Assembly: GCA_021775775.1 (NCBI GenBank)
Contig: JAJFHF010000245.1
Location: 1 to 44,821 of the forward strand
Length of the DNA: 44,821 nt
Source: Hyphomicrobiaceae bacterium
GTDB taxonomy: Bacteria; Pseudomonadota; Alphaproteobacteria; Rhizobiales; HXMU1428-3
Direction: 5' to 3'
Part shown: positions 866-42,878 of the stretch, one piece after another
Numbering within the stretch: the first letter of the stretch is position 1
Layout of the letters: every line of letters begins with the position of its first letter
Translations under genes and position numbers: made by a program
The notes under the pieces: generated by a model
What the model was told of the DNA's origin: nothing
The model's input: the letters and a program-made list of their open reading frames with translations, nothing else
Databases searched by the model: none

Positions 866-910
866 TGGTGGGACGTACTGGGATTGAACCAGTGACCCCT
901 GCAATGTCAA
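866..910 (-). pseudogene. 3' half of the split host tRNA-Val(GAC)
   Basis: On the minus strand this segment reads from the anticodon loop TTGACAT through TGCAG (3' anticodon strand), the variable loop, the T arm ACTGG-TTCAATC-CCAGT, the acceptor strand ACGTCCC and an encoded ACCA end. There is no 5' half next to it. Upstream the sequence changes to unrelated element DNA that cannot form the anticodon stem or D arm. The missing 5' half is at 42842-42878. It is separated from its promoter and should not give a functional tRNA. Confidence 0.93.
904..910. other. attL: attL core (7 bp, anticodon loop)
   Basis: ATGTCAA (TTGACAT on the tRNA strand) is identical to the copy at 42842-42848. To its left is host tRNA and to its right element DNA. 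Both junctions also share GACCCC starting ten bases left of the core, so the recombination region may extend beyond the 7 bp with mismatches. Confidence 0.9.
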
Positions 911-1007
911 CCGTACCATAAAACCTAAGTTTTTGGAATGTTGTGTTATTTTTTTTCAGTTACTTTGCATAGATTGCCCATTTGTGCAAGGTTTTCACTA
1001 AAATCGT

Positions 1008-1022
1008 ATCCCACGGGATCGC
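1008..1022 (-). repeat. Left copy of an inverted 15-bp repeat near the att site
   Basis: On the minus strand this reads GCGATCCCGTGGGAT, identical to 42736-42750 on the plus strand. The two copies lie 97 bp and 91 bp from the att cores, so in the excised circle they would flank attP almost symmetrically and in inverted orientation. They could be integrase arm-type or accessory sites. Each copy is also close to self-complementary and could form a short hairpin. Confidence 0.55.
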
Positions 1023-1050
1023 GTAATCGATTATTTTAATCACCAAACTC

Positions 1051-1078
1051 TTTACAAAATTGTGGATCAGTTTATGCT
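1051..1078 (+). promoter_or_regulatory. Predicted sigma70-type promoter of the element's tRNA-Val
   Basis: TTTACA (1051-1056) and TATGCT (1073-1078) are separated by 16 bp. The expected start of transcription lies about 10 bases before the mature tRNA 5' end at 1095. This suggests the tRNA is expressed from its own promoter and does not depend on the integration locus. Confidence 0.6.
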
Positions 1079-1094
1079 AACTGCCTTCGCCTGT

Positions 1095-1171
1095 GGGCGG
1101 TTAGCTCAGCTGGTTAGAGCGTTGCCTTGACATGGCAGAGGTCGGAGGTTCGAGTCCTCTACCGCCCACCA
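1095..1171 (+). tRNA. tRNA-Val(GAC), complete, carried by the prophage
   Basis: The 77-nt gene forms a full cloverleaf: acceptor GGGCGGT/ACCGCCC, D stem GCTC/GAGC, anticodon stem TTGCC/GGCAG with loop TTGACAT (anticodon GAC), T stem GGAGG/CCTCT with loop TTCGAGT, and an encoded ACCA end. It differs from the host tRNA-Val(GAC) in all stems except the D stem, so it is not a copy of the interrupted gene. It lies inside the element, about 185 bp from attL and 5 bp from the integrase stop codon on the opposite strand. The likely role is to replace the tRNA destroyed by integration. Confidence 0.96.
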
Positions 1172-4760: not shown

Positions 4761-5006
4761 CTAATCATCAAGCAAACTTTTCTGGTTATCATCGGCTTCC
4801 TTAACGGCCCGATCCTGATCCTGTGTTTTGAGCGACAGGGCTAACTCGATGCAGCCCTTCGTCAGCTTGGCGCGATCAAATTCTCGCGTGGCTTGCTTCT
4901 TCAGCTGCAGCAGGTTCTCCATGTCCATCTTCCGCATGGTTTCGATGGTCAGATGACAGATTTCGTCAAAGGTAGAGATAGGTTTGTTTTCGTGTGAATC
5001 GTTCAT
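4761..5006 (-). CDS. Hypothetical early phage protein
   Basis: An 81-residue charged, helical protein (IETMRKMDMENLLQLKKQAT in the middle) with no recognised domain. The reading frame stays open upstream to 5129, but the ATG at 5006 is chosen because AGGAGG lies seven bases before it and the upstream extension is proline-rich low-complexity sequence overlapping the G-run repeats. It is the first gene of the early operon downstream of the repressor on the same strand. Confidence 0.65.
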   Translation of the reverse strand: MNDSHENKPISTFDEICHLTIETMRKMDMENLLQLKKQATREFDRAKLTKGCIELALSLKTQDQDRAVKEADDNQKSLLDD

Positions 5007-6894: not shown

Positions 6895-7257
6895 ATGAGC
6901 ATGTTCAGGAAATTTGGCACATTGTTAGTCGTTATCGCGCTGGTGTTCTCTTCTATGGGAATCGCCGCGAATGCCTCTGCCTGCCCCATGAAGCAGGGCG
7001 GTGATATGCAGATGATGGATTGTGCTGATGATTGTCCTAATTGCGTATCGCAGAATGATGATAGCGATAGCAAAAACAATTGCTGCGATGATGGATTTGC
7101 CCGATGTGGCATGTCATCTGTTTCCGCTTTCTTTGTCCCCACCACAGCACAAGCTGTTGCGTTTGATGCTGCAAAATTGGCTTTTGTGGCCACCGATGAG
7201 AACAGCGAATCCGCTGCACTCACCCCCGATAAACAGCCTCCCCGAATTCTGTCTTAG
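6895..7257 (+). CDS. Secreted Cys-rich, probably metal-binding protein
   Basis: A 120-residue protein with a signal peptide (LLVVIALVFSSMGIAANASA, cleaved near residue 28) followed by a segment rich in Cys, Met and Asp: CPMK, MQMMDCADDCPNC, NNCCDD, ARCGM. Eight cysteines occur within about 45 residues, a pattern suited to periplasmic copper or silver binding. It is the first gene of the efflux cluster. The predicted -10 at 6888-6893 places the transcription start near 6900, so translation may begin at the second ATG, 6901, as a leaderless message. Family uncertain. Confidence 0.65.
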   Translation: MSMFRKFGTLLVVIALVFSSMGIAANASACPMKQGGDMQMMDCADDCPNCVSQNDDSDSKNNCCDDGFARCGMSSVSAFFVPTTAQAVAFDAAKLAFVATDENSESAALTPDKQPPRILS

Positions 7258-7365: not shown

Positions 7366-8589
7366 ATGAGACACATTATATTATCATTAATCAGCCTCGC
7401 TGCATTTGTTGCTTCGAGTCCAGCCCACGCAGAGACATTTGATGCTTTGCTGGAAAAGCTAAAAAACCATCCGCAGGTGGATGCAATCTTGGCAGAAAGC
7501 GAACGCCAGAATGAATTGGCAGACGGTGAGCTTGGCTTGCCTGATCCCACCGTATCCATTGGCGTGAATAATCTGCCGACCGATAGTTTTTCGTTTGGTA
7601 CGGAGCGCATGACCTCCAAGGGCATTGAGTTTAAGCAGGAGATTCCCAGCTACTCTTTGCGTAAAGCCAGATCAGGAATGCGTCAGGCAGAATCAACCAA
7701 GCAAAAGCTGATGGCGGATTATGCCGAGGCGCAGCTGAAAGCACTGCTGATCAAGCGGCTGGTGCAACTCCATATGCTGGATGAATTGGAAGATGCAGCG
7801 AAGAAGCAGGTTGCCCTTTACGGCACGATTGATAAGCATCTGCAAGGCCGCGCCGAAGCTGGTAGTTCGGTGTACGGCCAGTTCTTTGCCTTTGATGCAG
7901 AAAAGCTGGAAGTGCAACATAGCTTGAATGAAATAAGTCAGGAACGCACCGAGGCTGAGGAAGAGTTGCGCTGGCTGGTAGGTGAAGTGCCGGATAGTGC
8001 GACAGTTGAGAACATGGCATCCGAGTGGCCGGGGGATGCAGAGAATCTTTATCCAGTACGCATTGCCAAAGAAGATGTGTCAGTAAAACGGAAGAGTGTC
8101 GATGAAGCTGATGCTGCCTTTGGCCCTAATTACGGCATTCAAACCGCTTACATGCAGCGTGATTCAGTGGGTGGCAATAGTTTGAGTGATACGTTCAGCG
8201 TAAAGGCCAGCATTTCAATCCCACTCTGGGCATCAAGCAATCAGAAGCCAAAACTTCGGGCGGCGGAGGCCGCCGAGCGTAGTGCCAAATCTAATTATGA
8301 AGATACCAAACGCCAGTGGTTAAGCCGCATGAATGTGCTGCAAAACGAGTTAGAGATTTTACTCAAAAATGTGGCTGTGCTGAAAAAGAAGAAGGCTGCT
8401 TTGAATGAACTCATTGCTTCCAACGAGCGTCATTTTTAATCTGGCGAATTGGATTATGATATTTATTTGAAAGCAAAGGTGGATCGGCTGGATGTTGACC
8501 AGCGGCTTATCCGCCATCACGCCCATCACAAAATAATCATCGCTCAAATTAACAGCCACATCGCGGGAGGCTCTCATGAAAAGAATTAG
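7366..8589 (+). pseudogene. cusC: TolC-family outer-membrane channel (CusC-like), cut by one in-frame stop
   Basis: The first 357 codons encode a signal peptide (ending SSPAHA) and a TolC-type outer-membrane factor for an RND metal pump. An in-frame TAA at 8437-8439 interrupts it after ERHF. The same frame then continues for 49 codons with family-typical sequence (SGELDYDIYLKAKVDRLDVD) to TAG at 8587, overlapping the cusB start. The likely original codon is AAA (Lys), so one base change explains it. The lost C-terminal helix belongs to the periplasmic barrel, so function is doubtful. A sequencing error is possible. It precedes cusB and cusA in one operon. Confidence 0.85.
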
Positions 8590-9922
8590 TTTAATCCTCA
8601 CATTGCTTATCATGGTCTTTGCTCTGCCAGCATTGGCCGCCGAGCAATATACCTGCCCGATGCACCCGCACTACATTTCCGACCATGAAGGCACATGCCC
8701 GATATGCGGCATGGATTTGGTTCCAGTTGCAGGTGCGGAAGAAAATGCAACGGATGCACCCATGCAATCGGGTGAGAAGAAAATTCTCTATTGGGTTGCG
8801 CCAATGGATTCTAGCTACCGCATGGATAAACCCGGAAAATCACCAATGGGAATGGATTTAGTGCCGGTCTATGAAGAGTCAAATAATGGGGGTGATGCCC
8901 CCGGAATAGTGAAAATATCCCCGGAAACCATTCAAACCATGGGCGTTCGCACCGCCAAAGCAGAGAAAGCACCCTTTGGCACAGAGGTTCGTGCTGTTGG
9001 CATCGTGGAGGCAGACAAACGGACGCAGCAGGAACTCACCAGCCGCACCGAGGGGTGGATTGAGGGGCTAAAGATTGAGGCCATGGGCGATACGGTAGCA
9101 AAAAGTGATGTGCTATACCGCCTTTATAGCCCGGAGCTTATCAGCGCCCAGAAAGATTATATCAGCGCCCTTACCACTGGCATTAAAGGCCGCATCAACG
9201 CCACACGCAAACGGCTGGAATTTATGGGTGTGCAACCCGGCACCATAGCGGCAATCACCAGTGGGCGAAAAGCCACGGAGAAGCTACCGTTTTATGCGGA
9301 GGCTGCGGGAACGGTCAGCAAGATTATGGTGCGTGAAGGCAGCTATATCAAACCCGGTGAAATGATTGCCCAGATTGAAGATTATTCCAATGTCTGGGTG
9401 GAAGCGAGCGTAGCGGAAAAAGACATGGCGTTTATTTCTGCCGAGGCAGAAGCTAAGGTGCGCTTTCCGAACCTTAATAATAAAATGATACAGGCGAAGG
9501 TTGATTATATTTATCCGACCATTGATGTAGCCACCCGCATCGGCAAAATACGGCTGCTGGTTGCTAATGAGGGTGATATTCGCCCCGGTCTTTATGCCGA
9601 TGTGATGTTTGAAACCAAATCCGAACAACGGCTTTCCATCCCCACCGAAGCAATCTTGCACGATGCTGATGGTGAGCATGTGATCGTGGCGTTAGGTGAT
9701 GGCAGGTTTGCACCGCGTGATATTGAAACTGGCATTGCAGGTGGCGGTAGAACCGAAGTGCTTTCCGGCTTGGAAGAAGGCGCAAATATCGTGGTGAGCA
9801 GCCAGTTCCTGATCGATTCGGAGTCTTCGCTTCGGGAATCACTGAACAAAATGCAGCCACCGAAAGATGATGGCATGGCATCTGAACCAATGAAGATGGA
9901 GGGTGGTCATGCAGGACACTAA
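8576..9922 (+). CDS. cusB: RND efflux periplasmic adaptor, CusB type
   Basis: The 448-residue protein is the membrane-fusion subunit linking the inner-membrane pump to the outer-membrane channel. After a signal peptide (LPALAA) comes a heavy-metal-binding domain (YTCPMHPHY, then GTCPICGMDLVPV, residues 24-50) and a second partial copy (PMGMDLVPVYEE). The lipoyl and barrel domains follow (VRAVGIVEADKR; YAEAAGTVSKIMVREGSYI), with a helical hairpin around residues 190-220. The C-terminus is Met- and His-rich. A GGGAGG site precedes the start. It overlaps the broken end of cusC and the start of cusA, so translation is coupled. Confidence 0.92.
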   Translation: MKRISLILTLLIMVFALPALAAEQYTCPMHPHYISDHEGTCPICGMDLVPVAGAEENATDAPMQSGEKKILYWVAPMDSSYRMDKPGKSPMGMDLVPVYEESNNGGDAPGIVKISPETIQTMGVRTAKAEKAPFGTEVRAVGIVEADKRTQQELTSRTEGWIEGLKIEAMGDTVAKSDVLYRLYSPELISAQKDYISALTTGIKGRINATRKRLEFMGVQPGTIAAITSGRKATEKLPFYAEAAGTVSKIMVREGSYIKPGEMIAQIEDYSNVWVEASVAEKDMAFISAEAEAKVRFPNLNNKMIQAKVDYIYPTIDVATRIGKIRLLVANEGDIRPGLYADVMFETKSEQRLSIPTEAILHDADGEHVIVALGDGRFAPRDIETGIAGGGRTEVLSGLEEGANIVVSSQFLIDSESSLRESLNKMQPPKDDGMASEPMKMEGGHAGH

Positions 9923-12900
9923 TCACAATAGCCAGCTAGGACATGATCCCACCAAGTCATGGGTTGCCGGGGTTATAGAATGGTCGGTAAAAAACACTTT
10001 TTTAGTGTTGGTGCTGGTCGTAGCACTCACCGTTTCTGGTGTATTAGCGGTTAAGCAAACCCCGCTGGATGCCATTCCTGACTTGTCGGACACACAGGTG
10101 ATTATCCGCACCGAGTTTCCCGGCCAGTCACCACAGATTGTGGAGGATTTAGTCACATACCCGCTTTCCACAACCATGCTGGGGCTGCCTAAAACCAAAG
10201 CGGTGCGTGGCTTTTCAATGTTTGGCACCTCGTTTGTTTATATTATTTTCAAAGACCATGTGGATCAATACTGGGCGCGTAGTCGGGTGATCGAGGCACT
10301 GTCTAAAATTCAGGGGGATTTACCGCAGGCAGCAAAACCGCAGATTGGCCCGGATGCCACCGGCGTAGGCTGGGTCTATCAATATGCGATTGTCGATAAG
10401 TCCGGCAAGCATGATCTGGCGCAACTTCGATCCTTACAAGACTGGTTCTTGAAGTTTGAGCTGGCCACCGTGCCGGGAGTGTCAGAAGTCGCCTCGGTCG
10501 GCGGATTCGTCAAAGAATATCAGGTGCTGATTGACCCTAACCGCCTGAGAGCATTTGACGTGAATCTATCACGCATCAAGGAAGTGGTCGCTGCTGCCAG
10601 TGCCGAAGTGGGTGGCCGCGTGATCGAGCAGGCTGAAACCGAATATATGATTCGCTCCAAGGGCTATATCACCAATCTGGAAGACCTTAAAAAGACCGTT
10701 ATCAAAGCAAAAGACGGAACACCTGTATTACTATCAGATGTTGCACGGGTTATCGAAGGACCAGAGCTACGCCGTGGCGTGACGGAACTCAACGGCGAAG
10801 GTGAAGTGGTTGGCGGTTTCGTAGTGATGCGCTCCGGTGAGAATGCGCTGAATGTCATTGAGGGTGTGAAGAAGAAAATTGAAAGCCTGAAACCCGGTTT
10901 GCCGGAAGGCGTGGAGATTGTATCCGTTTATGATCGTGCGCCGCTGATTAAGGGCGCAGTGGAATATCTATCCCACAAGCTGATTGAAGAAGGCATTGTG
11001 GTGGCGTTGGTGACGCTGCTGTTTCTGTTACATGCTCGCTCTGCACTGGTGGCCATCATTACCTTGCCGCTTGGCGTATTGGCCGCGTTTATCGTCATGT
11101 CAGCACAAGGATTAACCGCTAACATCATGTCGCTCGGCGGTATCGCTATTGCGGTGGGTGCGATGGTGGATGCCTCCATTGTGATGGTGGAAAATGCCCA
11201 CCGCAAATTATCGGAGTTGGATGCAAATGCCAGCCGCGCAGAGAAGAATGCAGCTATTTTGCTTTCGGCAAAAGAAGTTGGGCCGGGATTATTTTTCTCC
11301 CTGTTGATTATCACCGTTTCATTTTTACCGGTGTTTGCGCTCACCGGGCAATCGTTCCGCTTATTTTCACCGCTGGCATTCACGAAAACCTATGCGATGG
11401 CTTTTGCCTCCATTCTGTCCATCACCGTGGTGCCGGTACTGATGCTGTGGCTGATTCGCGGCAAGATTAGGCGCGAGGATGAAAACCCAGTGAATCGCTG
11501 GTTCATAAAGCTCTACCAGCCATTACTGGCTAAGGCATTAAACTATCGCATCCTCACCGTGATTATCGCTGTCATGCTTATACTGTCTGCGGCTTTACCC
11601 TTATGGCGCACCGGCTCGGAGTTTATGCCGCCGCTTTATGAAGGCAATTTGCTGTATATGCCGATTACGCTGCCGGGTGTATCGATCACCAAAGCCAAGG
11701 ACATTCTGGCTCAAACCAACAGGCTGCTAAAAACAGCACCGGAAGTGGAGTTGGCATTTGGTAAAGTCGGGCGCACTGATTCTGCGACCGATCCTGCACC
11801 CATTTCCATGATTGAAACATGGATAAGGCTAAAACCAAAAGACCAGTGGCGCGAAGGCATGACACCGCAGTTGCTTATCAAGGAGTTGGATAAGCGCGTG
11901 AAGCTACCGGGGCTAACCAATAGCTGGGGTTATCCCATCAAAATCCGCATTGATATGGTATCCACTGGCATTCGCACTCCCGTGGGTATCAAGATTTCCG
12001 GCACGAATCTAAAGGAAATCGAACGCGTGGCGCGTGATGTGGAAATGGCGGTGAAAGATATTCCCGGCACCCGTTCCGCCTTTGCTGACCGCGTAGTGGG
12101 CGGAAAATATCTGGACATTACTCCGAACCGCGAAAATTTGGCGCGTTACAACATCGACATGATGATGTTTCAAAAGGTCATCCAAACAGCTCTAGGTGGG
12201 ATGCAAATTGCCGAATCCGTACAAGGTCGTGAACGTTATGCGATCATGATGCGTTATGACAGGCCATTCCGTGAGAACCCCAAAGACCTGAAAGATATTC
12301 TGGTGCCAACACCGGATGGGGCGCATATCCCGCTGGGTGAATTGGCAGGCATTGAATTTGCCGAAGGCCCACCGATGATTAAGTCGGAGAATGCACGGCT
12401 AAATGGCTGGGTGTACGTGGATATTGCAGATCGTGACATAGGAAGCTATGTCGCTGAAGCACAGAAAATTGTGGCTGATAAAGTCAAACTACCCGCCGGT
12501 TATGCCGTGGGCTGGTCTGGCCAGTTCGAGCAAATGCTTGAAGCCGAAGCACGACTAAAGATTGCTATCCCCGCCACTATCCTGATTATATTTGTGCTGC
12601 TGATAATGCATTTCGGGCGAGTGGATCGCACGTTGATGGTAATGCTATCGCTTCCATTCGGGTTAATTGGCGGCATGTGGGCGGTGTATCTGGCAGGCTA
12701 TAATATGTCGGTCGCTACTTCGGTCGGCTTTATCGCTCTGGCTGGCATTGCTGTGGAAACCGCCGTAGTCATGCTGCTCTATCTTGATCATCAGGTACGC
12801 AACCACCCGCCTTCTAACCTTAAAGAATTAGCAGAAGCCGTGATGCACGGTGCGGTGCTGCGGGTGCGCCCGAAGCTGATGACCGTATCCGTCATCATTG

Positions 12901-13088
12901 CCGGACTGCTGCCAATATTCCTGACCGATGGCCTTGGCTCGGATGTGATGCGCCGCATCGCGCTACCCATGGTAGGCGGGATGGTCACCACCACGATACT
13001 GACTCTCATCGTCATTCCGGTTGTCTATTTCCTCTGGGAGAGTCGCCATTTTAAACAAACCACACGAATAAAAAGGAGAACGATATGA
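9909..13088 (+). CDS. cusA: Heavy-metal RND efflux pump, CusA type
   Basis: This roughly 1059-residue inner-membrane protein is a proton-driven trimeric pump of the HME-RND family. It has the N-terminal transmembrane helix, the motif QTPLDAIPDLSDTQVII, the large periplasmic loops and two blocks of transmembrane helices. The helix-4 motif GAMVDASIVMVEN (near residue 417) resembles the Cu(I)/Ag(I) subgroup rather than divalent-cation pumps. The start is placed at ATG 9909, with GGAGG six bases upstream; a GTG two codons earlier is less likely. It overlaps cusB by 14 nt. With CusB it should export Cu(I) or Ag(I), provided a working outer-membrane partner is available. Confidence 0.95.
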   Translation: MQDTNHNSQLGHDPTKSWVAGVIEWSVKNTFLVLVLVVALTVSGVLAVKQTPLDAIPDLSDTQVIIRTEFPGQSPQIVEDLVTYPLSTTMLGLPKTKAVRGFSMFGTSFVYIIFKDHVDQYWARSRVIEALSKIQGDLPQAAKPQIGPDATGVGWVYQYAIVDKSGKHDLAQLRSLQDWFLKFELATVPGVSEVASVGGFVKEYQVLIDPNRLRAFDVNLSRIKEVVAAASAEVGGRVIEQAETEYMIRSKGYITNLEDLKKTVIKAKDGTPVLLSDVARVIEGPELRRGVTELNGEGEVVGGFVVMRSGENALNVIEGVKKKIESLKPGLPEGVEIVSVYDRAPLIKGAVEYLSHKLIEEGIVVALVTLLFLLHARSALVAIITLPLGVLAAFIVMSAQGLTANIMSLGGIAIAVGAMVDASIVMVENAHRKLSELDANASRAEKNAAILLSAKEVGPGLFFSLLIITVSFLPVFALTGQSFRLFSPLAFTKTYAMAFASILSITVVPVLMLWLIRGKIRREDENPVNRWFIKLYQPLLAKALNYRILTVIIAVMLILSAALPLWRTGSEFMPPLYEGNLLYMPITLPGVSITKAKDILAQTNRLLKTAPEVELAFGKVGRTDSATDPAPISMIETWIRLKPKDQWREGMTPQLLIKELDKRVKLPGLTNSWGYPIKIRIDMVSTGIRTPVGIKISGTNLKEIERVARDVEMAVKDIPGTRSAFADRVVGGKYLDITPNRENLARYNIDMMMFQKVIQTALGGMQIAESVQGRERYAIMMRYDRPFRENPKDLKDILVPTPDGAHIPLGELAGIEFAEGPPMIKSENARLNGWVYVDIADRDIGSYVAEAQKIVADKVKLPAGYAVGWSGQFEQMLEAEARLKIAIPATILIIFVLLIMHFGRVDRTLMVMLSLPFGLIGGMWAVYLAGYNMSVATSVGFIALAGIAVETAVVMLLYLDHQVRNHPPSNLKELAEAVMHGAVLRVRPKLMTVSVIIAGLLPIFLTDGLGSDVMRRIALPMVGGMVTTTILTLIVIPVVYFLWESRHFKQTTRIKRRTI

Positions 13089-13216
13089 TGAATATGGATG
13101 GAATGAATATGGGAGCCATGATGGGCGGCATGGGATTAATGGGGCTACTGCTGATTATTGTTTTAGTGCTGGCTGCGCTGGCACTTGGAAAATACCTATT
13201 TTCCAAAAAGAAATAA
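13085..13216 (+). CDS. Small Met-rich membrane protein (43 aa)
   Basis: This short gene overlaps the cusA stop and has AAGGAG seven bases before the ATG. The product has eleven methionines in 43 residues, nearly all in an N-terminal Met/Gly segment (MMNMDGMNMGAMMGGMGLMG), followed by one transmembrane helix (LLLIIVLVLAALALG) and a basic tail ending KKK. Met-rich stretches bind Cu(I) and Ag(I), so it may pass metal to the efflux pump or regulate it. No family is recognised. Confidence 0.75.
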   Translation: MMNMDGMNMGAMMGGMGLMGLLLIIVLVLAALALGKYLFSKKK

Positions 13217-13234
13217 TGAATTGCAGAATAAGGC

Positions 13235-13266
13235 TTGACCCTTGAGTTACCTCCAAGGTGTAGAAT
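13235..13266 (+). promoter_or_regulatory. MerR-type promoter of the first regulator gene
   Basis: TTGACC (13235-13240) and TAGAAT (13261-13266) are 20 bp apart, the lengthened spacer that MerR-family activators correct by DNA distortion. Between them is the dyad ACCCTTGAG-TTAC-CTCCAAGGT (13238-13259). The regulator gene follows directly, so it is probably autoregulated. Confidence 0.8.
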
Positions 13267-13273
13267 GTGCAAT

Positions 13274-13708
13274 ATGGATAAAAAACAATACATCACTATT
13301 GGTAAATTATCGAAGATTAGTGGAACACCAACAGATACCATCCGCTATTACGAGAAATTAGGTGTGCTCGGTAAGCCGGAGCGTGCTTCCAATGGTTACC
13401 GCGTGTATGGGCAGGATACGCTTAATATTTTGCTCTTTATTCGCCGCGCTAAAATCATGGACTTTAGCTTAGAAGAAATCAAACAACTTCTAATTATGGC
13501 GGATGATAGCAATGCCGTGTGTGGAGATATTTTAATAATGGTAGAAAACAAAATCAGCGCATTCAAAGAGAGGGTCGAAGACACACAAATTGCGATGCAT
13601 TCGCTGGAGAATTTTGCAAATGATTGCCCCGGTGGGAAAGTTCCAGCAAGACATTGTCCTTTCATTCACTATTTAGAAACAAAAAAACCATCATCAAGCC
13701 CATTCTAA
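13274..13708 (+). CDS. MerR-family metal sensor
   Basis: A 144-residue MerR-family activator. The helix-turn-helix (YITIGKLSKISGTPTDTIRYYEKLGVL) is N-terminal, followed by the dimerisation helix and a C-terminal metal loop. Cysteines occur at AVCGD (the position of Cys79 in ZntR/PbrR-type sensors) and in CPGGKVPARHC. The first Cys and the 20-bp promoter spacer favour a divalent-metal sensor over CueR, although the neighbouring pump looks Cu/Ag-specific. Start 13274 is chosen because earlier ATGs lie in or before the -10; it coincides with the expected transcription start, suggesting leaderless translation. Confidence 0.85.
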   Translation: MDKKQYITIGKLSKISGTPTDTIRYYEKLGVLGKPERASNGYRVYGQDTLNILLFIRRAKIMDFSLEEIKQLLIMADDSNAVCGDILIMVENKISAFKERVEDTQIAMHSLENFANDCPGGKVPARHCPFIHYLETKKPSSSPF

Positions 13709-13803
13709 AGCCAGCTTAGTAAGTATAATTGCCATGGATTACATGATCATTATGGCTGCTGCGGCGGAGTTGGGCACCTTCTAATTTTTCCCTACAAAAT
13801 GTC

Positions 13804-13835
13804 TTGACTCTGGAGTATACTCAAGGGTTTATAAT
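13804..13835 (+). promoter_or_regulatory. mer promoter/operator
   Basis: TTGACT (13804-13809) and TATAAT (13830-13835) are 20 bp apart with the dyad ACTCTGGAG-TATA-CTCAAGGGT between them, the classic MerR operator. The genes merR, merT, merP and merA all lie downstream in one direction, so this single promoter probably drives the whole operon, including its own regulator. Confidence 0.85.
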
Positions 13836-13856
13836 GGTATTTAATAGAGGTGAATT

Positions 13857-14285
13857 ATGACGAATTTAACCATAGGAAAGCTGGCAAAAGCCTGTGACGT
13901 AAACATAGATACAATCAGATATTACGAAGGTCTGGGATTGTTGCCACCAGAGGGTCGGACAGAAGCTGGGTATCGTGTTTACAATGGAGAGAGCCTTAAC
14001 CGTTTAAAATTCATTCGGCAGGCACAGCGTCTTGATTTTACGTTAGAAGAAATAAAAGAGCTGCTTAATCTTCGCGTATCTGACAATGCCAAATGTGCGG
14101 ATGTGAGGCAGCAGGCCGAGGCAAAAATAACCCTTGTGGAAGCAAAGGAAAAAGAACTTAAGAAAATCAAAAAGGCGCTGAAGGAACTGGCTTCTGCATG
14201 CAGCAAAGGTGATGCTCCGGCGAGTGAATGCCCGATTTTAGAAAAACTCTATCCGAGCCACAAAAATACATCTGAAACCGAATAA
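13857..14285 (+). CDS. merR: Mercury-responsive regulator MerR
   Basis: A 142-residue MerR-family regulator at the head of the mer genes. The helix-turn-helix is LTIGKLAKACDVNIDTIRYY; the metal-site cysteines are in AKCADV (Cys82 of classical MerR), ACSKG and SECPI. The last two are ten residues apart, against nine in Tn501 MerR as I recall it, so geometry is slightly different. AGAGGTG precedes the ATG. It should repress the operon without Hg(II) and activate it with Hg(II), acting at the dyad upstream of its own gene. Confidence 0.88.
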   Translation: MTNLTIGKLAKACDVNIDTIRYYEGLGLLPPEGRTEAGYRVYNGESLNRLKFIRQAQRLDFTLEEIKELLNLRVSDNAKCADVRQQAEAKITLVEAKEKELKKIKKALKELASACSKGDAPASECPILEKLYPSHKNTSETE

Positions 14286-14309
14286 CTAAACATGACTCAA
14301 GGAAAATAT

Positions 14310-14693
14310 ATGGAAGAAGAATCAGAAAATACAAATAATGGCAAAACGCGCTGGTTATTGGGTGCTGGAATCGCGGCTGCATTTACTGCAACACTGTGCT
14401 GCATTGCACCTCTGGTACTATTCTTACTTGGCATCAGTGGGGCGTGGGTTGCCAACCTTACGGCATTGGAACCTTACCGGCCTTATTTTCTGACCGCAGC
14501 CATTATTTTTGTCGCAGTTGGATATTGGAAAGTGTATCGCAAGCCGAAAGCAGCCGACTGCAAACCCGGCACCTTTTGTGCCATGCCGGAATCTGATCGT
14601 ATTAATAAAATCATGCTGTGGATTGCCACGGCCATCATAGCGCTGGTGTTGGTATATCCATATATCGCACCTGCCATTTTAGAACAGTTATAA
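14310..14693 (+). CDS. merT: Mercuric ion transporter MerT
   Basis: The 127-residue inner-membrane protein has three hydrophobic helices. Helix 1 carries the vicinal pair ATLCCIAPLVL (Cys30-Cys31) that receives Hg(II) from MerP, and the cytoplasmic loop has the second pair (DCKPGTFCAMP, Cys84 and Cys90) that passes it to MerA. GAWVANLTALEPYRP is the typical MerT signature. ATG 14310 is preferred because AAGGAAAA lies before it; an ATG at 14292 lacks a binding site. It ends 16 bp before merP. Confidence 0.93.
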   Translation: MEEESENTNNGKTRWLLGAGIAAAFTATLCCIAPLVLFLLGISGAWVANLTALEPYRPYFLTAAIIFVAVGYWKVYRKPKAADCKPGTFCAMPESDRINKIMLWIATAIIALVLVYPYIAPAILEQL

Positions 14694-14709
14694 CCCAAAG
14701 GAGAATCCC

Positions 14710-15063
14710 ATGAAAAAATCATTACTTATCATCGCGCTGGTCGCCGTTCTTGGCGGCGGTGCCATACTTACCTCAGTCAGTGCTGAGGATAATGCCAAAC
14801 CTGCTGCAACTGCCAGCACTGAGCAGAAAATGGTGACGTTAGATGTTCCGGGAATGTTCTGCCCAACATGCCCCTATACCGTGCGTAAAAGTCTTGAAAA
14901 AGTGTCTGGTGTGACGGAGGTGGAAACATCGAGCGAAACTAAAACAGCAGTCGTTAAATATGATCCTTCTAAAGTGGATATTGATGCGCTGATTGCCGCT
15001 ACCACAAATGTTGGCTACCCATCCACGGTACATAAATGTGAAGCTGATACAGAAGTTTGCTAA
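14710..15063 (+). CDS. merP: Periplasmic mercury-binding protein MerP
   Basis: A 117-residue secreted protein with a signal peptide (cleavage near SVSA-ED) and an HMA domain containing GMFCPTCPYTV (Cys51, Cys54), the mercury-binding loop. A spacer of about 14 residues rich in Ala and Thr separates signal and domain, longer than in classical MerP. A final CEADTEVC adds two cysteines at the C-terminus, which is unusual and may give extra metal binding. AAAGGAG precedes the start. Confidence 0.93.
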   Translation: MKKSLLIIALVAVLGGGAILTSVSAEDNAKPAATASTEQKMVTLDVPGMFCPTCPYTVRKSLEKVSGVTEVETSSETKTAVVKYDPSKVDIDALIAATTNVGYPSTVHKCEADTEVC

Positions 15064-15084
15064 CAGTTCATATAGGAGAAGACC

Positions 15085-16521
15085 ATGTCTGATTGCTGCG
15101 ATTCTAATAACACTCAAGAAAAAACAATCTCACCTGATTTGCTGGTAATCGGCGCGGGTTCCGGCGGGTTTTCTGCTGCCATTACCGCTGCTGAAAAAGG
15201 TGCAAACGTGGTTATCGCAGGTGTGGGTACGATTGGCGGTACATGCGTTAATTTTGGCTGTGTTCCTTCAAAAACCATGATTAGAGCAACCGAAACACTG
15301 CATCAGGCAAGCAAGGCTTCCCGTTTCGATGGGATTGAAGCCAGTGCCAAAATCACTGACTGGAAAGCGTTAGTAGCACAGAAACAAGCCTTGGTAGATG
15401 AATTGAGAGTGACAAAATATATTGATGTGCTGCCAGCCTACGAAAACGTGTCTTATGTAGAAGGACGGTCTGTTTTTACCGATGATGGGGTTATGGTAGG
15501 CGATACGCTCTACACTCCGCAAAAAACCATCATTGCGACCGGCTCAACAGCTTCACTGCCACCGATTGACGGTATGCTTAGTGTGCCTCACCTCACCAGC
15601 ACCACTGCATTAGAATTACAAAAACAACCAAAATCGCTGCTTATTATCGGTGGTGGGGTTATCGGCGTGGAATTAGGCCAGATGTTTGCCAGAGCCGGAA
15701 CAAAAGTAACAATTTGTTGCCGCAGTCGATTAGTGCCGGAAACCGAGCCGGAAATCAGTGAAGCATTAACTAAATATTTGCAAGAGGAAGGCGTTGATGT
15801 ATGTGCTGGAATTGGCTACCAGAAAATCGAAGAAATAGATGGCGGCATTCGCCTAACCCATGACAAAGATGGAGAAACCCGCACCATTGATGCCGAGCAG
15901 GTTTTAGTGACCACTGGACGCAAGCCCAATACAGCCAGTATGGGACTGGAAGAAAACGGCATAAAGCTGATTAAAAACGGTGGCATACAGGTGGGTGAAT
16001 ATATGCAAACCACCCGCGAAGATGTGTATGCAGTGGGTGATGTAACGGGTGCAGATATGTTTGTCTATATGGCTGCGTATGGTGGAAAACTGGCCGCGCT
16101 AAACGCCATAGATGGCAATAAAAATGCCTATGATAATGCCACTATGCCTTCGGTCATATTTACCGATCCACAAGTTGCCGGTGTTGGGCTAACCGAGGCG
16201 CAGGCAAAAGAGCAAGGCATGGATGTAAAGACCAGCACAATCACTCTTGATCATGTGCCGCGCTTTATCGCTGCTCGCGATACCAGAGGCTTAATTAAAT
16301 TGGTGGCTGACAGAAAAACCGACAAGTTACTCGGCGCACATATTTTAGCACCCGAAGCTGGAGATATAATACAAACAGTTGTTATTGCCTTAAAATCCCA
16401 AATGACGACCGAAGCACTGGCAAATACCATATTTCCATACCTAACAGGGGTTGAGGGGCTTAAACTCGCCGCCCAAACCTTCGATAAGGATGTCAGCAAA
16501 CTCTCCTGCTGCGCGGGGTAG
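15085..16521 (+). CDS. merA: Mercuric reductase MerA
   Basis: The 478-residue flavoprotein reduces Hg(II) to volatile Hg(0) with NADPH in the cytoplasm. It shows the FAD-binding VIGAGSGGFSAA, the redox-active GTCVNFGCVPSK (Cys54, Cys59), the NAD(P)H-binding IIGGGVIGVELG, the second FAD motif DVYAVGDVTG and the C-terminal vicinal Cys475-Cys476 (KLSCCAG) that delivers mercury. There is no N-terminal HMA domain; in its place is a short Cys-containing leader (SDCCDS). It follows merP by 21 bp and precedes the DUF3330 gene by 3 bp. Confidence 0.96.
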   Translation: MSDCCDSNNTQEKTISPDLLVIGAGSGGFSAAITAAEKGANVVIAGVGTIGGTCVNFGCVPSKTMIRATETLHQASKASRFDGIEASAKITDWKALVAQKQALVDELRVTKYIDVLPAYENVSYVEGRSVFTDDGVMVGDTLYTPQKTIIATGSTASLPPIDGMLSVPHLTSTTALELQKQPKSLLIIGGGVIGVELGQMFARAGTKVTICCRSRLVPETEPEISEALTKYLQEEGVDVCAGIGYQKIEEIDGGIRLTHDKDGETRTIDAEQVLVTTGRKPNTASMGLEENGIKLIKNGGIQVGEYMQTTREDVYAVGDVTGADMFVYMAAYGGKLAALNAIDGNKNAYDNATMPSVIFTDPQVAGVGLTEAQAKEQGMDVKTSTITLDHVPRFIAARDTRGLIKLVADRKTDKLLGAHILAPEAGDIIQTVVIALKSQMTTEALANTIFPYLTGVEGLKLAAQTFDKDVSKLSCCAG

Positions 16522-16889: not shown

Positions 16890-17084
16890 ATGAGTGAGGA
16901 AGAAGAAAGCACCACATCAAGCGAAATAGGCAACGTATCCGACAGGGTGTTGGATGTCTTTGTAAACAAGTTGGAATCTGAGGAAGAATATGCCGAGGTT
17001 GCAGGGCGCTTAAAAGATGTTGTATTTAACGATAAAGTTTCAGAAAAAGCGCTCCGCACAGCCCTGTTTGGTGAGGAAGAATAA
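16890..17084 (+). CDS. Small acidic protein paired with the SMC-like ATPase
   Basis: A 64-residue, strongly acidic protein starting with SEEEESTTSSE and ending FGEEE, with a helical middle (VSDRVLDVFVNKLESEEEYA and a following AGRLKDVVF). No family is recognised. Its last base is the first base of the ATPase gene, so the two are translationally coupled and probably act as a pair. It could be a regulator, inhibitor or adaptor of the ATPase. Confidence 0.7.
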   Translation: MSEEEESTTSSEIGNVSDRVLDVFVNKLESEEEYAEVAGRLKDVVFNDKVSEKALRTALFGEEE

Positions 17085-19537
17085 TGATCCGAATCAAGCA
17101 ACTCATCATTCAAGAATTCCGAGGTATTCGTAACCTCACCTTTGATATGAACGGTGATAACTTTGCCGTGTGTGGGCCGAATGGAACAGGCAAAAGCGGA
17201 ATTGTAGATTCCATCGAATTTGCACTTACTGGTAATGTTTCCCGGTTAGCCGGTGAAGGAACAGGCAATCTATCCGTCAAAGACCATGGCCCTCACGTTG
17301 ATTGTACAGACCCTGAAAATGCCAGTGTTACCTTGACATTTGAAATAGTTGCCAGTGGGAAAGAAGCCACCGTTCATAGAACAGTAAAAAATGTTAGAAA
17401 GCCAAAAATCACCCCGGCAGATGCAGATGTGGTGGAAGCCCTAGCTCATATTGAAGCCCATCCGGAATTCGTTCTCTCGCGCCGTGAGTTGATCAAATAT
17501 GTGCTGTCAAATCCGGGTGATCGAGCAAAAGAAGTGCAGGCATTATTGCGGTTAGATAAACTGGAATCCCTGCGCACCAATTTTCAGAAAATTGCCAATG
17601 CTGAAAAGCGAGGTGAAAAACCTCTGGAGAACCAAAAACAAATAGCCAGAAATTCACTCGTTGAAGCACTTGGAATAGCCCAGCTTAATGAGAGCGAGAT
17701 ATTGCAGCAGATCAATGTCCGAAGAGAAATACTTGGTTTGCCTAAAATTGAGAAACTGGAGGCGAGTACATCTTTTAAAGATGGGTTGGCCACGATGGGG
17801 GATGGCATTGCTAAATCACGCATTGCAAAAGCTCAGGCGCTGACTGACATAACAGGTTTAGAGGAAAAGCTGGAAGAATTACTGGCGGATGATTTTGGCA
17901 CAAAACACGCCACTGCTTTAAAAGAAGTATCGGATTTGGCAGCTGATCCGATGGTGGATAAAGCGGCATCACATAAGCAAATGTTGGATGTGGCTTTAGC
18001 CATTTTTGACGATCAGGAATGTCCTGTCTGTGAAACGGAGTGGGAGCCGGAAGAATTCAAAAACATTGTTCAGGCCAAGTTGAGTCATTTAGAAACAATC
18101 AAACAACAGCAGGCTGAATTAGAAAAAACCATCGCTCCGGTTGCTACTACCATTGAAGAGCTAGTTGCTCATATTACGACCGTGGCAAAATATGGGCCAT
18201 TACTTCCCGCCGCCATAGAGGTCACAGCGCTTACCAATTATCAAAACACATTAAGTCTGATCAGCACCAAGCTACGCAAATTGTTTCCTCTGTCTGATAG
18301 CCAATCCGCATTGGAAGAAGTATTTGCACCCGCCGAAGATATCACCGCTCTGATTGAAAGCATAAAGGTGGCCATTACAGCACTTCCAGAACCTTCCACT
18401 CAAGATGCGGCGCGGGAATACCTGATTGTTGCTCAGGAGCGCATGGAAGCCTATCGTGCTGCCTCAGCGCTGCTTAAAGCATGCCAGTCCCGCATCAAAA
18501 TCGCTGACAAAGTACATGAAACCTATGGTGATGTGATGACGATAGAGCTGGAGAATGTGTATGCCAGCGTAGAAAAAACCTTCCGCAATCTCTATCGCAT
18601 CATCAATGCCGAAGATGAAAGCGCCTTTGAAGCTAAATTAACGCCATCAATGGGTCGCCTTGGCTTTGATGTTGATTTTTATGGGCGTGGCTATTTTCCG
18701 CCCGGTGCTTTTCATAGTGAAGGGCACCAAGACAGCATGGGCTTATGCCTTTACCTCGCGCTAATGCAGCATTTGCTATCAGGAAAATTCACTTTTGCCG
18801 TGTTAGATGATGTGCTGATGTCGGTGGATGCGGGGCATAGGAGAGAAGTTTGCACGCTGTTAAAACAAAAATTCCCGGACACACAATTCATGCTCACCAC
18901 CCATGATGATATTTGGCTGCGACACATGAAAACCGCTGGTTTAATTAAGCGCAACGGTTTTGTGCATTTTAGAACATGGAGTGTGGATGTTGGCCCAACC
19001 GAGTGGGATGATAGGGATGTTTGGCGGGAAATAGATGACCATTTATCCAAGAATAATGTAAGGGACGCAGCAAGCCTTCTGCGGCATTATCTGGAATATC
19101 TCTCTAAAGAGATTTGCCACCGATTAAGAGCTCAAGTGGTGTTTCGGGGGGATGCTCAATATTCGCTCGGTGATTTGCTTCCACCGGGAGTAAAAAGATT
19201 GAGAGATTTTCTAAAAGAGGGAATTAAAGCTGCTGAATCGTGGGAGCAAAACGACAAAAAAGAGTCGATAGAAAAGCTGCTGAAATCACTTAATGATGCT
19301 GCTCAAGCATCCGAAGTCGAGCAATGGCAAATCAACACGGCCATTCATTACAATGAGTGGGAGAATCTGAATAAAAGGGATTTTGAGCCGGTCGTGGAAG
19401 CATTCAAGGCGCTTAACAGCATCTTTGAATGTGACACCTGTGAAGAGCTGCTTTATGTATCACCGGAGCGAGGCAAAAAAGAAGCAGTGCGCTGTGGGTG
19501 TGGCTCTATCAATGTAAATCTTATTAAGAAGAGCTAA
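17084..19537 (+). CDS. SMC/Rad50/RecF-like ATPase, candidate defence protein
   Basis: The 817-residue protein has a split ABC-type ATPase: Walker A GPNGTGKS (31-38), signature-like SEGHQDSMGL (545-554), Walker B FAVLDDVLMSVD (571-582) and H-loop TTHDD (605-609). The middle is coiled coil with CPVC (313-316), which resembles a Rad50 zinc hook although only about 275 residues of coil lie on its N-terminal side. Beyond the ATPase a domain of about 170 residues ends in a zinc ribbon (CDTC 783-786, CGC 804-806). No nuclease motif is evident. The gene sits in prophage cargo with a coupled small acidic gene and converges on the lysis genes. DNA sensing in anti-phage defence is inferred. Confidence 0.8.
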   Translation: MIRIKQLIIQEFRGIRNLTFDMNGDNFAVCGPNGTGKSGIVDSIEFALTGNVSRLAGEGTGNLSVKDHGPHVDCTDPENASVTLTFEIVASGKEATVHRTVKNVRKPKITPADADVVEALAHIEAHPEFVLSRRELIKYVLSNPGDRAKEVQALLRLDKLESLRTNFQKIANAEKRGEKPLENQKQIARNSLVEALGIAQLNESEILQQINVRREILGLPKIEKLEASTSFKDGLATMGDGIAKSRIAKAQALTDITGLEEKLEELLADDFGTKHATALKEVSDLAADPMVDKAASHKQMLDVALAIFDDQECPVCETEWEPEEFKNIVQAKLSHLETIKQQQAELEKTIAPVATTIEELVAHITTVAKYGPLLPAAIEVTALTNYQNTLSLISTKLRKLFPLSDSQSALEEVFAPAEDITALIESIKVAITALPEPSTQDAAREYLIVAQERMEAYRAASALLKACQSRIKIADKVHETYGDVMTIELENVYASVEKTFRNLYRIINAEDESAFEAKLTPSMGRLGFDVDFYGRGYFPPGAFHSEGHQDSMGLCLYLALMQHLLSGKFTFAVLDDVLMSVDAGHRREVCTLLKQKFPDTQFMLTTHDDIWLRHMKTAGLIKRNGFVHFRTWSVDVGPTEWDDRDVWREIDDHLSKNNVRDAASLLRHYLEYLSKEICHRLRAQVVFRGDAQYSLGDLLPPGVKRLRDFLKEGIKAAESWEQNDKKESIEKLLKSLNDAAQASEVEQWQINTAIHYNEWENLNKRDFEPVVEAFKALNSIFECDTCEELLYVSPERGKKEAVRCGCGSINVNLIKKS

Positions 19538-38314: not shown

Positions 38315-38842
38315 ATGACTGAACTTTCTACAGCACAACGCACCATTTTAACCTCTGCAGCTAAATCGCCAAATACTGAAATTCGACAATTTATGCAGCA
38401 CATCAAAAGCCCTGTCATACAGGATAAGATGATCACCGCCTTGCTACGCAAAAAGATGATTACGGTGCAAGGTGCCGAAGCAGTCGGCAACCATTACAAA
38501 TTCGATAAAAACACCAAGTTTGTAATCAGCCAGGAAGGGCTGAATGTCATCAACGGCTCGGCAGAGGCCGCACCTGTAACATCATGTAACACGGAGAAAC
38601 ACGATGTAACGCCGAGTAACGAACCGAAACGCGAGACCAAGCAATCGATTATCATTAATCTTTTATCCCGCGAAGAAGGAGCAACCCTGGTAGAGTTAAT
38701 CGATGCCACCGGATGGAAACCACACTCGGTACGCGGTCATCTCTCCAACCTGCGTAAAAAGCGTGGATTGCCCATTGAAACCTTCACCACCGGCGAAGGC
38801 AAACATGGCTACCGACTTTTACCTGATCAGGAAGCGGCCTGA
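38315..38842 (+). CDS. DUF3489-like regulatory protein
   Basis: A 175-residue protein and the only plus-strand gene in the structural region. The C-terminal 65 residues (QSIIINLLSREEGATLVELI, then TGWKPHSVRGHLSNLRKKRG) match DUF3489, a winged helix-turn-helix-like domain. The N-terminal half has a similar helical domain. The linker encodes NTEKHDVTPSNEPKR, close to the replication protein's linker repeat, because the gene contains the same phased DNA repeats. AAGGAG precedes the start. DNA binding is likely; its target is unknown. Confidence 0.8.
   Translation: MTELSTAQRTILTSAAKSPNTEIRQFMQHIKSPVIQDKMITALLRKKMITVQGAEAVGNHYKFDKNTKFVISQEGLNVINGSAEAAPVTSCNTEKHDVTPSNEPKRETKQSIIINLLSREEGATLVELIDATGWKPHSVRGHLSNLRKKRGLPIETFTTGEGKHGYRLLPDQEAA
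38576..38630 (+). repeat. Six GWAAC motifs at exact 10-bp spacing
   Basis: GTAAC at 38576, 38586, 38606 and 38616 and GAAAC at 38596 and 38626 keep a perfect 10-bp period. The unit and its order (including GAAACACGATGTAAC) match the array at 4100-4174 in the replication gene. In the circular phage genome the two arrays are about 7.5 kb apart. Confidence 0.75.
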
Positions 38843-40062
38843 CGCTTTTTCGCAATCTCCGCAAAGGACTTCTTTTCACCGGCATGCTTCGCAGTTTTGC
38901 CGGTGAACTCTTCCCACCGCTTCACAATCACATCCACATAGCACGGATCAAGTTCAATCAACCGCGCCTTACGTTGCAATTTCTCACACGCGATCAGCGT
39001 AGTGCCGGAGCCACCGAAGCTGTCCAACACGATATCCTTTGTTTTGCTGCTGTTTTCAATGCCACGGCACACCAACTCCACCGGCTTCATGGTCGGATGT
39101 AAGTCATTGGTTTTAGGTTTATCGTAATGCCATAGATCGCTCTGGCTACGATCTCCACACCAGAAATGCTTGTTGCCATCAGGCCAGCCATAGAGGATCG
39201 GCTCATATTGTCGTTGATAATCTGAGCGACCCATCGTGAAGTGATTCTTTCCCCAGATAATAAACGTTGACCATTTGCCGCCAGCGTCTGCAAAGGCACG
39301 ATGGAGGGTATGGAGTTCTGAGGAGGACATGCAGATATACAACGCACCCTTGCAGACTTTCACCATCTCGGTACAGGCATCTGTCAGAAACTTCTGAAAA
39401 TCAGCACCGAGATTATCATTCTTAATCTTCCGTTTGTTACCGCGCACATTGTCTTTCATGGTTTGACCATAATCGACATTGTAGGGCGGGTCGGTAAATA
39501 CCATGTCGGCCAGCTCGTCACCCATCAATGCCTTCATGGTTTTGGCCTTGGTGCTATCGCCGCAGATTACACGGTGGTCGCCCATCAGCCAGATATCACC
39601 TTCTTTGGAAACCGGTATCTCCGGTGCTTCCGGTACTTCATCATCATCGGTTAATCCATCCATCGCAGCACCATCGAGCAGCTGTTCCAGTTCAATTGCT
39701 TCAAACCCTGTTAGATCTAAATCAAAATCCATATCGCTCAGTTCACCAAGCTCAATCGCCAACAGATCTTCGTCCCACTCCGCATCTTCATGGGTGCGGT
39801 TGTCAGCCAGCCTGTAAGCCTTTATCTGCGCCTGTGTGAGGCCAGTGGCTACATGCACCGGTACTTTTTTTAACCCCAGCGTCTGCGCCGCCTGCAGGCG
39901 CGTGTGGCCTGCAATGATAACCATTTCCTCATCCACCACGATAGGCTGGCGGAATCCGTATTCCTTAATCGAGGCAGCAACTTTGGCTATGGCAGCATCA
40001 TTTTTGCGGGGATTACGCGCATACGGAATCACCCGACCAATTTCGATCAGTTCTACTTTCAT
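38827..40062 (-). CDS. ParB-domain / DNA methyltransferase fusion
   Basis: The 411-residue protein joins a ParB/sulfiredoxin-like N-terminal domain (IPYARNPRKND, IIAGHTRLQAA, residues 12-58) to an N6-adenine or N4-cytosine methyltransferase. TDPPYNVDYG (191-198) precedes FGGSGTT (349-355), the beta-class order. HPTMKPVELV is also typical. Such orphan methyltransferases are common in phages and may protect against host restriction. It converges on the DUF3489 gene, overlapping it by 16 bp. Confidence 0.93.
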   Translation of the reverse strand: MKVELIEIGRVIPYARNPRKNDAAIAKVAASIKEYGFRQPIVVDEEMVIIAGHTRLQAAQTLGLKKVPVHVATGLTQAQIKAYRLADNRTHEDAEWDEDLLAIELGELSDMDFDLDLTGFEAIELEQLLDGAAMDGLTDDDEVPEAPEIPVSKEGDIWLMGDHRVICGDSTKAKTMKALMGDELADMVFTDPPYNVDYGQTMKDNVRGNKRKIKNDNLGADFQKFLTDACTEMVKVCKGALYICMSSSELHTLHRAFADAGGKWSTFIIWGKNHFTMGRSDYQRQYEPILYGWPDGNKHFWCGDRSQSDLWHYDKPKTNDLHPTMKPVELVCRGIENSSKTKDIVLDSFGGSGTTLIACEKLQRKARLIELDPCYVDVIVKRWEEFTGKTAKHAGEKKSFAEIAKKRQAAS

Positions 40063-42735: not shown

Positions 42736-42750
42736 GCGATCCCGTGGGAT
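42736..42750 (+). repeat. Right copy of the inverted 15-bp repeat near the att site
   Basis: GCGATCCCGTGGGAT is the inverted counterpart of 1008-1022. Here it is followed by CG and TTTTT, so it can also form a hairpin with a T-run on the plus strand and act as a terminator for rightward transcripts. It lies 91 bp before the attR core. Confidence 0.55.
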
Positions 42751-42841
42751 CGTTTTTGAGCCGTTTTTGTTAAGAGGTGTTTTGGCTAAGTCTTTGATAG
42801 AAGGGGAATTCGTTACAAACTATTCGTTTGCGACCCCAGTT

Positions 42842-42848
42842 ATGTCAA
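42842..42848. other. attR: attR core (7 bp, anticodon loop)
   Basis: ATGTCAA, identical to 904-910. To its right the host tRNA 5' half begins; to its left is element DNA (GACCCCAGTT) that neither pairs with the anticodon stem nor rebuilds the 3' half. Confidence 0.9.
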
Positions 42849-42878
42849 TGCAGTGCTCTCCCGCTGAGCTAACGTCCC
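42842..42878 (-). pseudogene. 5' half of the split host tRNA-Val(GAC)
   Basis: On the minus strand: GGGACGT acceptor strand, TA, D arm GCTC-AGCGGGA-GAGC, A, CTGCA and loop TTGACAT. Joined to 903-866 it gives a 75-nt tRNA with every stem fully paired. Here it is followed by unrelated element sequence, so no functional tRNA can form. Confidence 0.93.

Follow-up and report, generated by a model that had tools for sequence, protein, structure and literature searches.

Organization of the prophage

The stretch of DNA analysed here (the window, 44,821 nt) is contig C163 of an alphaproteobacterial metagenome-assembled genome, a draft with 266 contigs, a total of 2.7 Mb and a completeness of 95.5%; all the hosts compared below, including this one, are draft metagenome assemblies. 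A prophage of about 42 kb spans positions 904 to 42848. Its left part encodes an integrase, a DUF6362 protein and replication proteins, and its right part carries the endolysin, tail, tape measure, head protease, portal and terminase genes. Between the replication and structural parts lies a heavy-metal/mercury cargo (7366-16521) specifying an outer-membrane efflux protein, a CusB-like adaptor, a CusA/CzcA RND pump, two MerR-family regulators, MerT, MerP and MerA. An SMC/SbcC-like ATPase of 817 aa (17084-19537) adjoins the lysis gene, and a ParB-N domain fused to an N6/N4 DNA methylase (38827-40062) is kept in related prophages. Features of the prophage ends are listed in Table 1.

Table 1. 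Features of the prophage ends in the window and candidate arrangements in viral contigs
Feature	Position	Strand	Evidence or remark
Host tRNA-Val(GAC), 3' part including 7-bp core (904-910), left junction	866-910	-	100% match to rebuilt gene; rebuilt attB folds as tRNA-Val(GAC)
att core ATGTCAA, int-side junction	904-910		Shared with 42842-42848
attP arm repeat, int side, ATCCCACGGGATCGC	1008-1022	-	15-bp inverted match to 42736-42750
Predicted sigma-70-like promoter of surrogate tRNA (TTTACA, 16 nt, TATGCT)	1051-1078	+	Consensus scan, 9/12 matches
Intact element-borne tRNA-Val(GAC), surrogate	1095-1171	+	ARAGORN; Rfam RF00005, 68 bits; all stems paired; homologues at same place in L214, L215, L216
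Tyrosine integrase, 362 aa	1177-2265	-	PF00589, 1.5e-14; PHROG 1 integrase, 4.3e-47
attP arm repeat, distal side, GCGATCCCGTGGGAT	42736-42750	+	Inverted match to 1008-1022
att core ATGTCAA, distal junction	42842-42848		Shared with 904-910
Host tRNA-Val(GAC), 5' part including core, right junction	42842-42878	-	Match to rebuilt gene; flank joining
Candidate in L204 (same phage in L212), intact tRNA Val-CAC	6955-7115		Loop match TTCACACG
Candidate in L156, intact tRNA Val-CAC	4765-4905		Loop match TTCACACG
Candidate in L183, intact tRNA Thr-GGT	6935-7101		Loop match CTTGGTAAGGG

A host tRNA-Val(GAC) gene is split in its anticodon loop

The 7-bp core shared by the two prophage ends is the anticodon loop (TTGACAT) of a host tRNA-Val(GAC) gene. 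Joining the host flanks gives a perfect 75-nt tRNA-Val(GAC) with every stem paired, and the intact gene, 89-97% identical, occupies the syntenic place in seven congeners. The first-pass annotation, which had the gene cut in the anticodon loop and proposed a look at the empty site in relatives, was thus right on this point; the two halves lie where it placed them, with the correction that each includes the core. It had also held that element DNA rebuilds neither half. Accordingly, ARAGORN called no tRNA on attP, on the junction product or at the window junctions, and the host 5' half combined with the adjoining element DNA forms two of the five anticodon-stem pairs and is not called as a tRNA. 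The element DNA on the distal side is nevertheless not wholly devoid of tRNA character, since a GGTC lies at tRNA variable-loop distance from the core.

A second intact host copy, named in the annotation as a finding that would speak against its reading, was sought in the draft genome and not found: just the two halves of the broken gene are present. ARAGORN identifies 25 tRNAs in the draft; those for valine are the prophage copy, which is the sole intact tRNA-Val(GAC), and one with anticodon TAC. Many tRNAs are missing from the draft, so that the lack of a second copy is weak by itself, and the argument leans on the congeners, in each of which the host tRNA-Val(GAC) gene has just one match. 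From these comparisons, the broken gene seems to be the only tRNA-Val(GAC) of the host.

In a draft of so many contigs, an assembly artefact or a mixture of strains could have joined unrelated pieces. Such an origin is scarcely credible here, however, given that the window flanks are syntenic with the congeners and that an element with ends 94-96% identical (L214, see below) shows both types of junction in another genome, with another host tRNA.

An intact tRNA-Val(GAC) lies next to the integrase gene

ARAGORN and Rfam (RF00005) agree on one intact tRNA in the whole window, which, as first proposed, has the anticodon of the split gene and adjoins the integrase gene (int). The 3' end of this tRNA (the surrogate) is 5 bp from the int stop codon, the two genes being convergent, and its start is 191 bases from the start of the core, outside the attP arm repeats. 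It matches the host tRNA-Val(GAC) at 57 of 77 aligned positions. The claim that it has its own promoter holds to the extent that a promoter-like sequence precedes it; TTTACA and a downstream TAT hexamer are found at the same place in two of the related elements described below (L215 and L216). The annotation would have given up replacement if the same tRNA stood in related strains devoid of the prophage; none was found in congeners without it, nor was an exact copy found in viral contigs.

Three further elements combine a split and an intact tRNA-Val(GAC)

Scanning about 85,000 species genomes for the integrase yielded five loci. Identity to the window integrase is 99% in L214, 74% in L215, 69% in L216 and 68% in L217. 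The first three answer the call of the first-pass annotation for other int genes paired with a tRNA of the same anticodon: all show the order int, convergent intact tRNA-Val(GAC), arm repeat, core and host tRNA-Val(GAC) 3' half, with an extra stretch of about 1.1 kb separating int and tRNA in L215. The matching host 5' halves are located on the same contig in L214 (2541-2579), 26 kb away in L215 and on another contig of the same genome in L216. Each element splits a different host tRNA-Val(GAC), the sequences of which differ mutually and from that of the window. Since the pattern AGAGY-N6-YTGACAY misses some congener genes and is not exhaustive, a similarity search was added for tRNA copies; no other intact tRNA-Val(GAC) was found in the three genomes, and the anticodon was a different one in every other similar tRNA that was checked.

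L214 (2541-7129) is a 4.5-kb deletion derivative of the window prophage. About 37 kb are missing inside, while int, the surrogate and both att sides are kept, and what remains shares 93-96% identity with the window. L214 resides in a distant host: a protein encoded on the same contig by that host shows 59% identity to the one of the window genome, and the tRNAs that the two elements split agree at 53 of 78 positions. If the halves of these tRNAs are swapped, the acceptor stem forms 5 of its 7 pairs and the anticodon stem 2-3 of its 5; one 3' half could therefore hardly serve both hosts, whereas a whole tRNA can. We assembled six chimeric tRNAs from halves of different hosts, and those involving the window host give 5/7 acceptor and 2-4/5 anticodon-stem pairs. 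ARAGORN still calls a tRNA in four of the six combinations, indicating that the incompatibility between host tRNAs is graded rather than absolute. In L216, the replication genes are 88-91% identical to those of the window, compared with 69% for the integrase, which suggests that int, tRNA and att sites are exchanged as one cassette.

Across the elements the surrogates vary in sequence and keep their stem pairs (7/7, 5/5 and 5/5). With related canonical integrases (G061, G097 and others of the same order), the position of the surrogate is taken by a rebuilt tRNA-Val(GAC), likewise convergent with int; elements of the G061/G097 type sit at the same host locus, beside a receiver-domain gene, and leave the displaced 3' half at the far end. 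The surrogate may thus descend from the rebuilt tRNA of a canonical element that became part of the element itself. The same likeness would fit a functionless relic, captured from a former host during an earlier canonical integration. A relic should decay, yet the surrogates of three diverged elements retain all stems in spite of sequence change, and the L214 deletion derivative still holds its tRNA, so that we consider a relic very improbable.

A search of viral contigs with a single protein returned no close relative of the integrase, and among described phages the int-tRNA-attP stretch was not found, the hits being tRNA matches and weak integrase matches. Related integrases in three groups of viral contigs (L204/L212, L156 and L183; Table 1) have a separate anticodon-loop match 3' of int and an intact tRNA 65-90 bp further on. 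As short matches occur elsewhere in tRNAs too, these are only candidates for tRNA replacement; with their order int-core-tRNA, a host tRNA promoter could drive the phage tRNA.

Structure of attP

In the joined attP, GCGATCCCGTGGGAT and its reverse complement flank the core, the former at -106 and the latter at +104. The 15-bp repeat has only these two copies in the window and is conserved in L214, L215, L216 and L217. With symmetric inverted arms around it, the core looks native and not like a secondary site. A shared core of just 7 bp could otherwise be taken as a sign that the usual target of the integrase lies elsewhere; the arms, and the use of the same tRNA isotype and anticodon loop by four elements, make this exceedingly improbable.

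On the side of attP opposite int, a GGTC occurs five bases after the core in the window, L214, L215 and L216, as it does in the tRNAs themselves (post-core sequences: TTGACATAACTGGGGTCG in the window and L214, TTGACATCACTGCGGTCG in L215 and TTGACATACATACGGTCG in L216). Because GGTC is kept in all, the integrase seems to need the anticodon loop and GGTC and not the anticodon stem. The distal attP also contains CAAAC-GAATA-GTTTG after the GGTC (window 42834-42860), a possible small hairpin that was not seen in every relative.

An element that rebuilds its target has no surrogate

The fifth locus, L217 (11230-11380, and G780:C6 near 243546-243619), has the same arm repeats and no tRNA beside int. 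Its target is a tRNA-Ile(GAT). The int-side junction contains a displaced tRNA-Ile 3' part, and the far end, about 38 kb away, contains an intact tRNA-Ile followed by the distal arm repeat. An identity block of about 49 bp spans the entire 3' part of the tRNA, and the target is thereby rebuilt. Hence L217 has the attP of a canonical tRNA-restoring element, one that carries the tRNA 3' part, which the window prophage does not, and the surrogate is absent where the tRNA is restored. No relic of a surrogate was detected in L217, 315 of 500 shuffles scoring as high.

The integrase tree groups L217 and L216 as sisters (100/98), and a single clade of the four replacing elements is rejected (AU p = 0.008). 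With surrogates at one place and in one orientation in the other lineages, the simplest reading is that the rebuilding state derived from the replacing state within this clade; a surrogate gained twice could still account for the tree.

These comparisons bear on a further role for the tRNA. Many phages carry tRNAs for lytic growth, where they supply codons or allow escape from host anticodon nucleases (background in PMC10865867), and such a role is compatible with replacement. That it is the whole explanation, with the match in isotype being a coincidence, is very unlikely: the phage has no other tRNA, the surrogate of each of the four replacing elements occupies one and the same position beside int and corresponds to the gene that is broken, and the one element that restores its target, L217, is the one without a surrogate.

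Probable replacement of the host tRNA

Altogether, four elements with related integrases each break a divergent tRNA-Val(GAC) and carry an intact one by int, and L217, which has none, rebuilds its target. These data support the surrogate replacement put forward by the first-pass annotation, which very probably works here as tRNA-dependent lysogeny. The tyrosine integrase of the temperate phage would recombine the 7-bp attP core with the anticodon loop of the host tRNA-Val(GAC). As attP is without the tRNA 3' half, integration breaks the host gene, and the complete tRNA-Val(GAC) with its promoter-like sequence, located between int and attP, most likely stands in for that gene in the lysogen. 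Judging from the sequence, the host gene would be recovered without change if the element excised at the core.

The need of the host for tRNA-Val(GAC) may be less than strict, as its genome has a tRNA-Val(TAC). The range of codons read by tRNA-Val(UAC) is widened by a modification of U34 for which CmoB is the enzyme. Searches of the hosts gave short partial CmoB matches and no full-length one, so that they may lack the extended wobble usual for this tRNA. Unmodified U34 can read four codons in some organisms. No tRNA-Val(GAC) was found in the possibly incomplete genome that harbours L217 (G780), and this too counts against a strict need.

Comparison with known systems

Lysogeny dependent on a phage tRNA was described in 2024 in mycobacterial phages by Guerrero-Bustamante and Hatfull (PMC10865867): the core is short, no tRNA is rebuilt and a phage tRNA of the same isotype is needed for lysogeny, while sister phages with the same type of integrase rebuild the tRNA and lack a phage tRNA. 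That study did not settle the relationship between replacing and rebuilding systems or how common replacement is. On its sequence features (a tyrosine integrase, attB in a tRNA gene, a short core, no tRNA at the junctions and a phage tRNA-Val(GAC)), the window prophage is filed as a member of this known kind. It shares with the actinobacteriophages (Fionnbharth, cluster L, Gaia and others; PMC10865867) the arm-type sites flanking the core and the close integrase relatives that rebuild without a phage tRNA, and with Gaia (PMC10865867) a tRNA downstream of int and an inverted attP. It differs from them in its alphaproteobacterial host, its use of tRNA-Val(GAC) and its core of 7 bp, as against 8-17 bp (PMC10865867). 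Furthermore, the tRNA of Fionnbharth is away from attP and overlaps gene 37, whereas all four replacing elements here retain it between int and attP. The requirement for lysogeny was established with mutants in the actinobacteriophages (PMC10865867); the present case is known from sequence.

Closer in host, two Sinorhizobium meliloti prophages like Mesorhizobium phage vB_MloP_Lo5R7ANS also insert in the middle of a tRNA gene in Alphaproteobacteria and carry a foreign copy with the same anticodon, the broken gene being tRNA-Leu(UAG) instead of tRNA-Val(GAC) (PMC11476347). Prophage Lj965 of Lactobacillus johnsonii, from a Firmicutes host, reportedly does not rebuild its tRNA and encodes the cognate one, as far as its citation in PMC10865867 goes. 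Canonical Islander-type elements at the same host locus (G061 and G097) have an integrase of the same superfamily, a crossover in the tRNA-Val(GAC) anticodon loop and a convergent tRNA by int. In those elements, however, the tRNA is rebuilt from the host 5' half and an element 3' half, and a displaced 3' half is left; compared with them, the window prophage has int at the other end with respect to the host 5' half.

New in this alphaproteobacterial lineage are the linked int-tRNA-attP cassette, the near-identical prophage (94-96%) in hosts with poorly interchangeable tRNAs, and the restoring element nested among replacing ones in the integrase tree. If the integrase needs only the anticodon loop and GGTC, one phage could lysogenise hosts with tRNAs too different to be restored by one 3' half, and a rebuilding element arising within a replacing clade would make the replacement state reversible. 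It is thus possible, and perhaps somewhat short of probable, that carriage of a whole tRNA frees the integrase from the host tRNA sequence, so that distant hosts are lysogenised, in a state that can be reversed. Lysogeny of this kind, so far mainly known in phages of Actinobacteria, very probably extends to an alphaproteobacterial phage group as a conserved cassette, and one small integrase clade holds both replacing and rebuilding members. Together with near-identical prophages in unlike hosts, this makes a host-range advantage of replacement testable.
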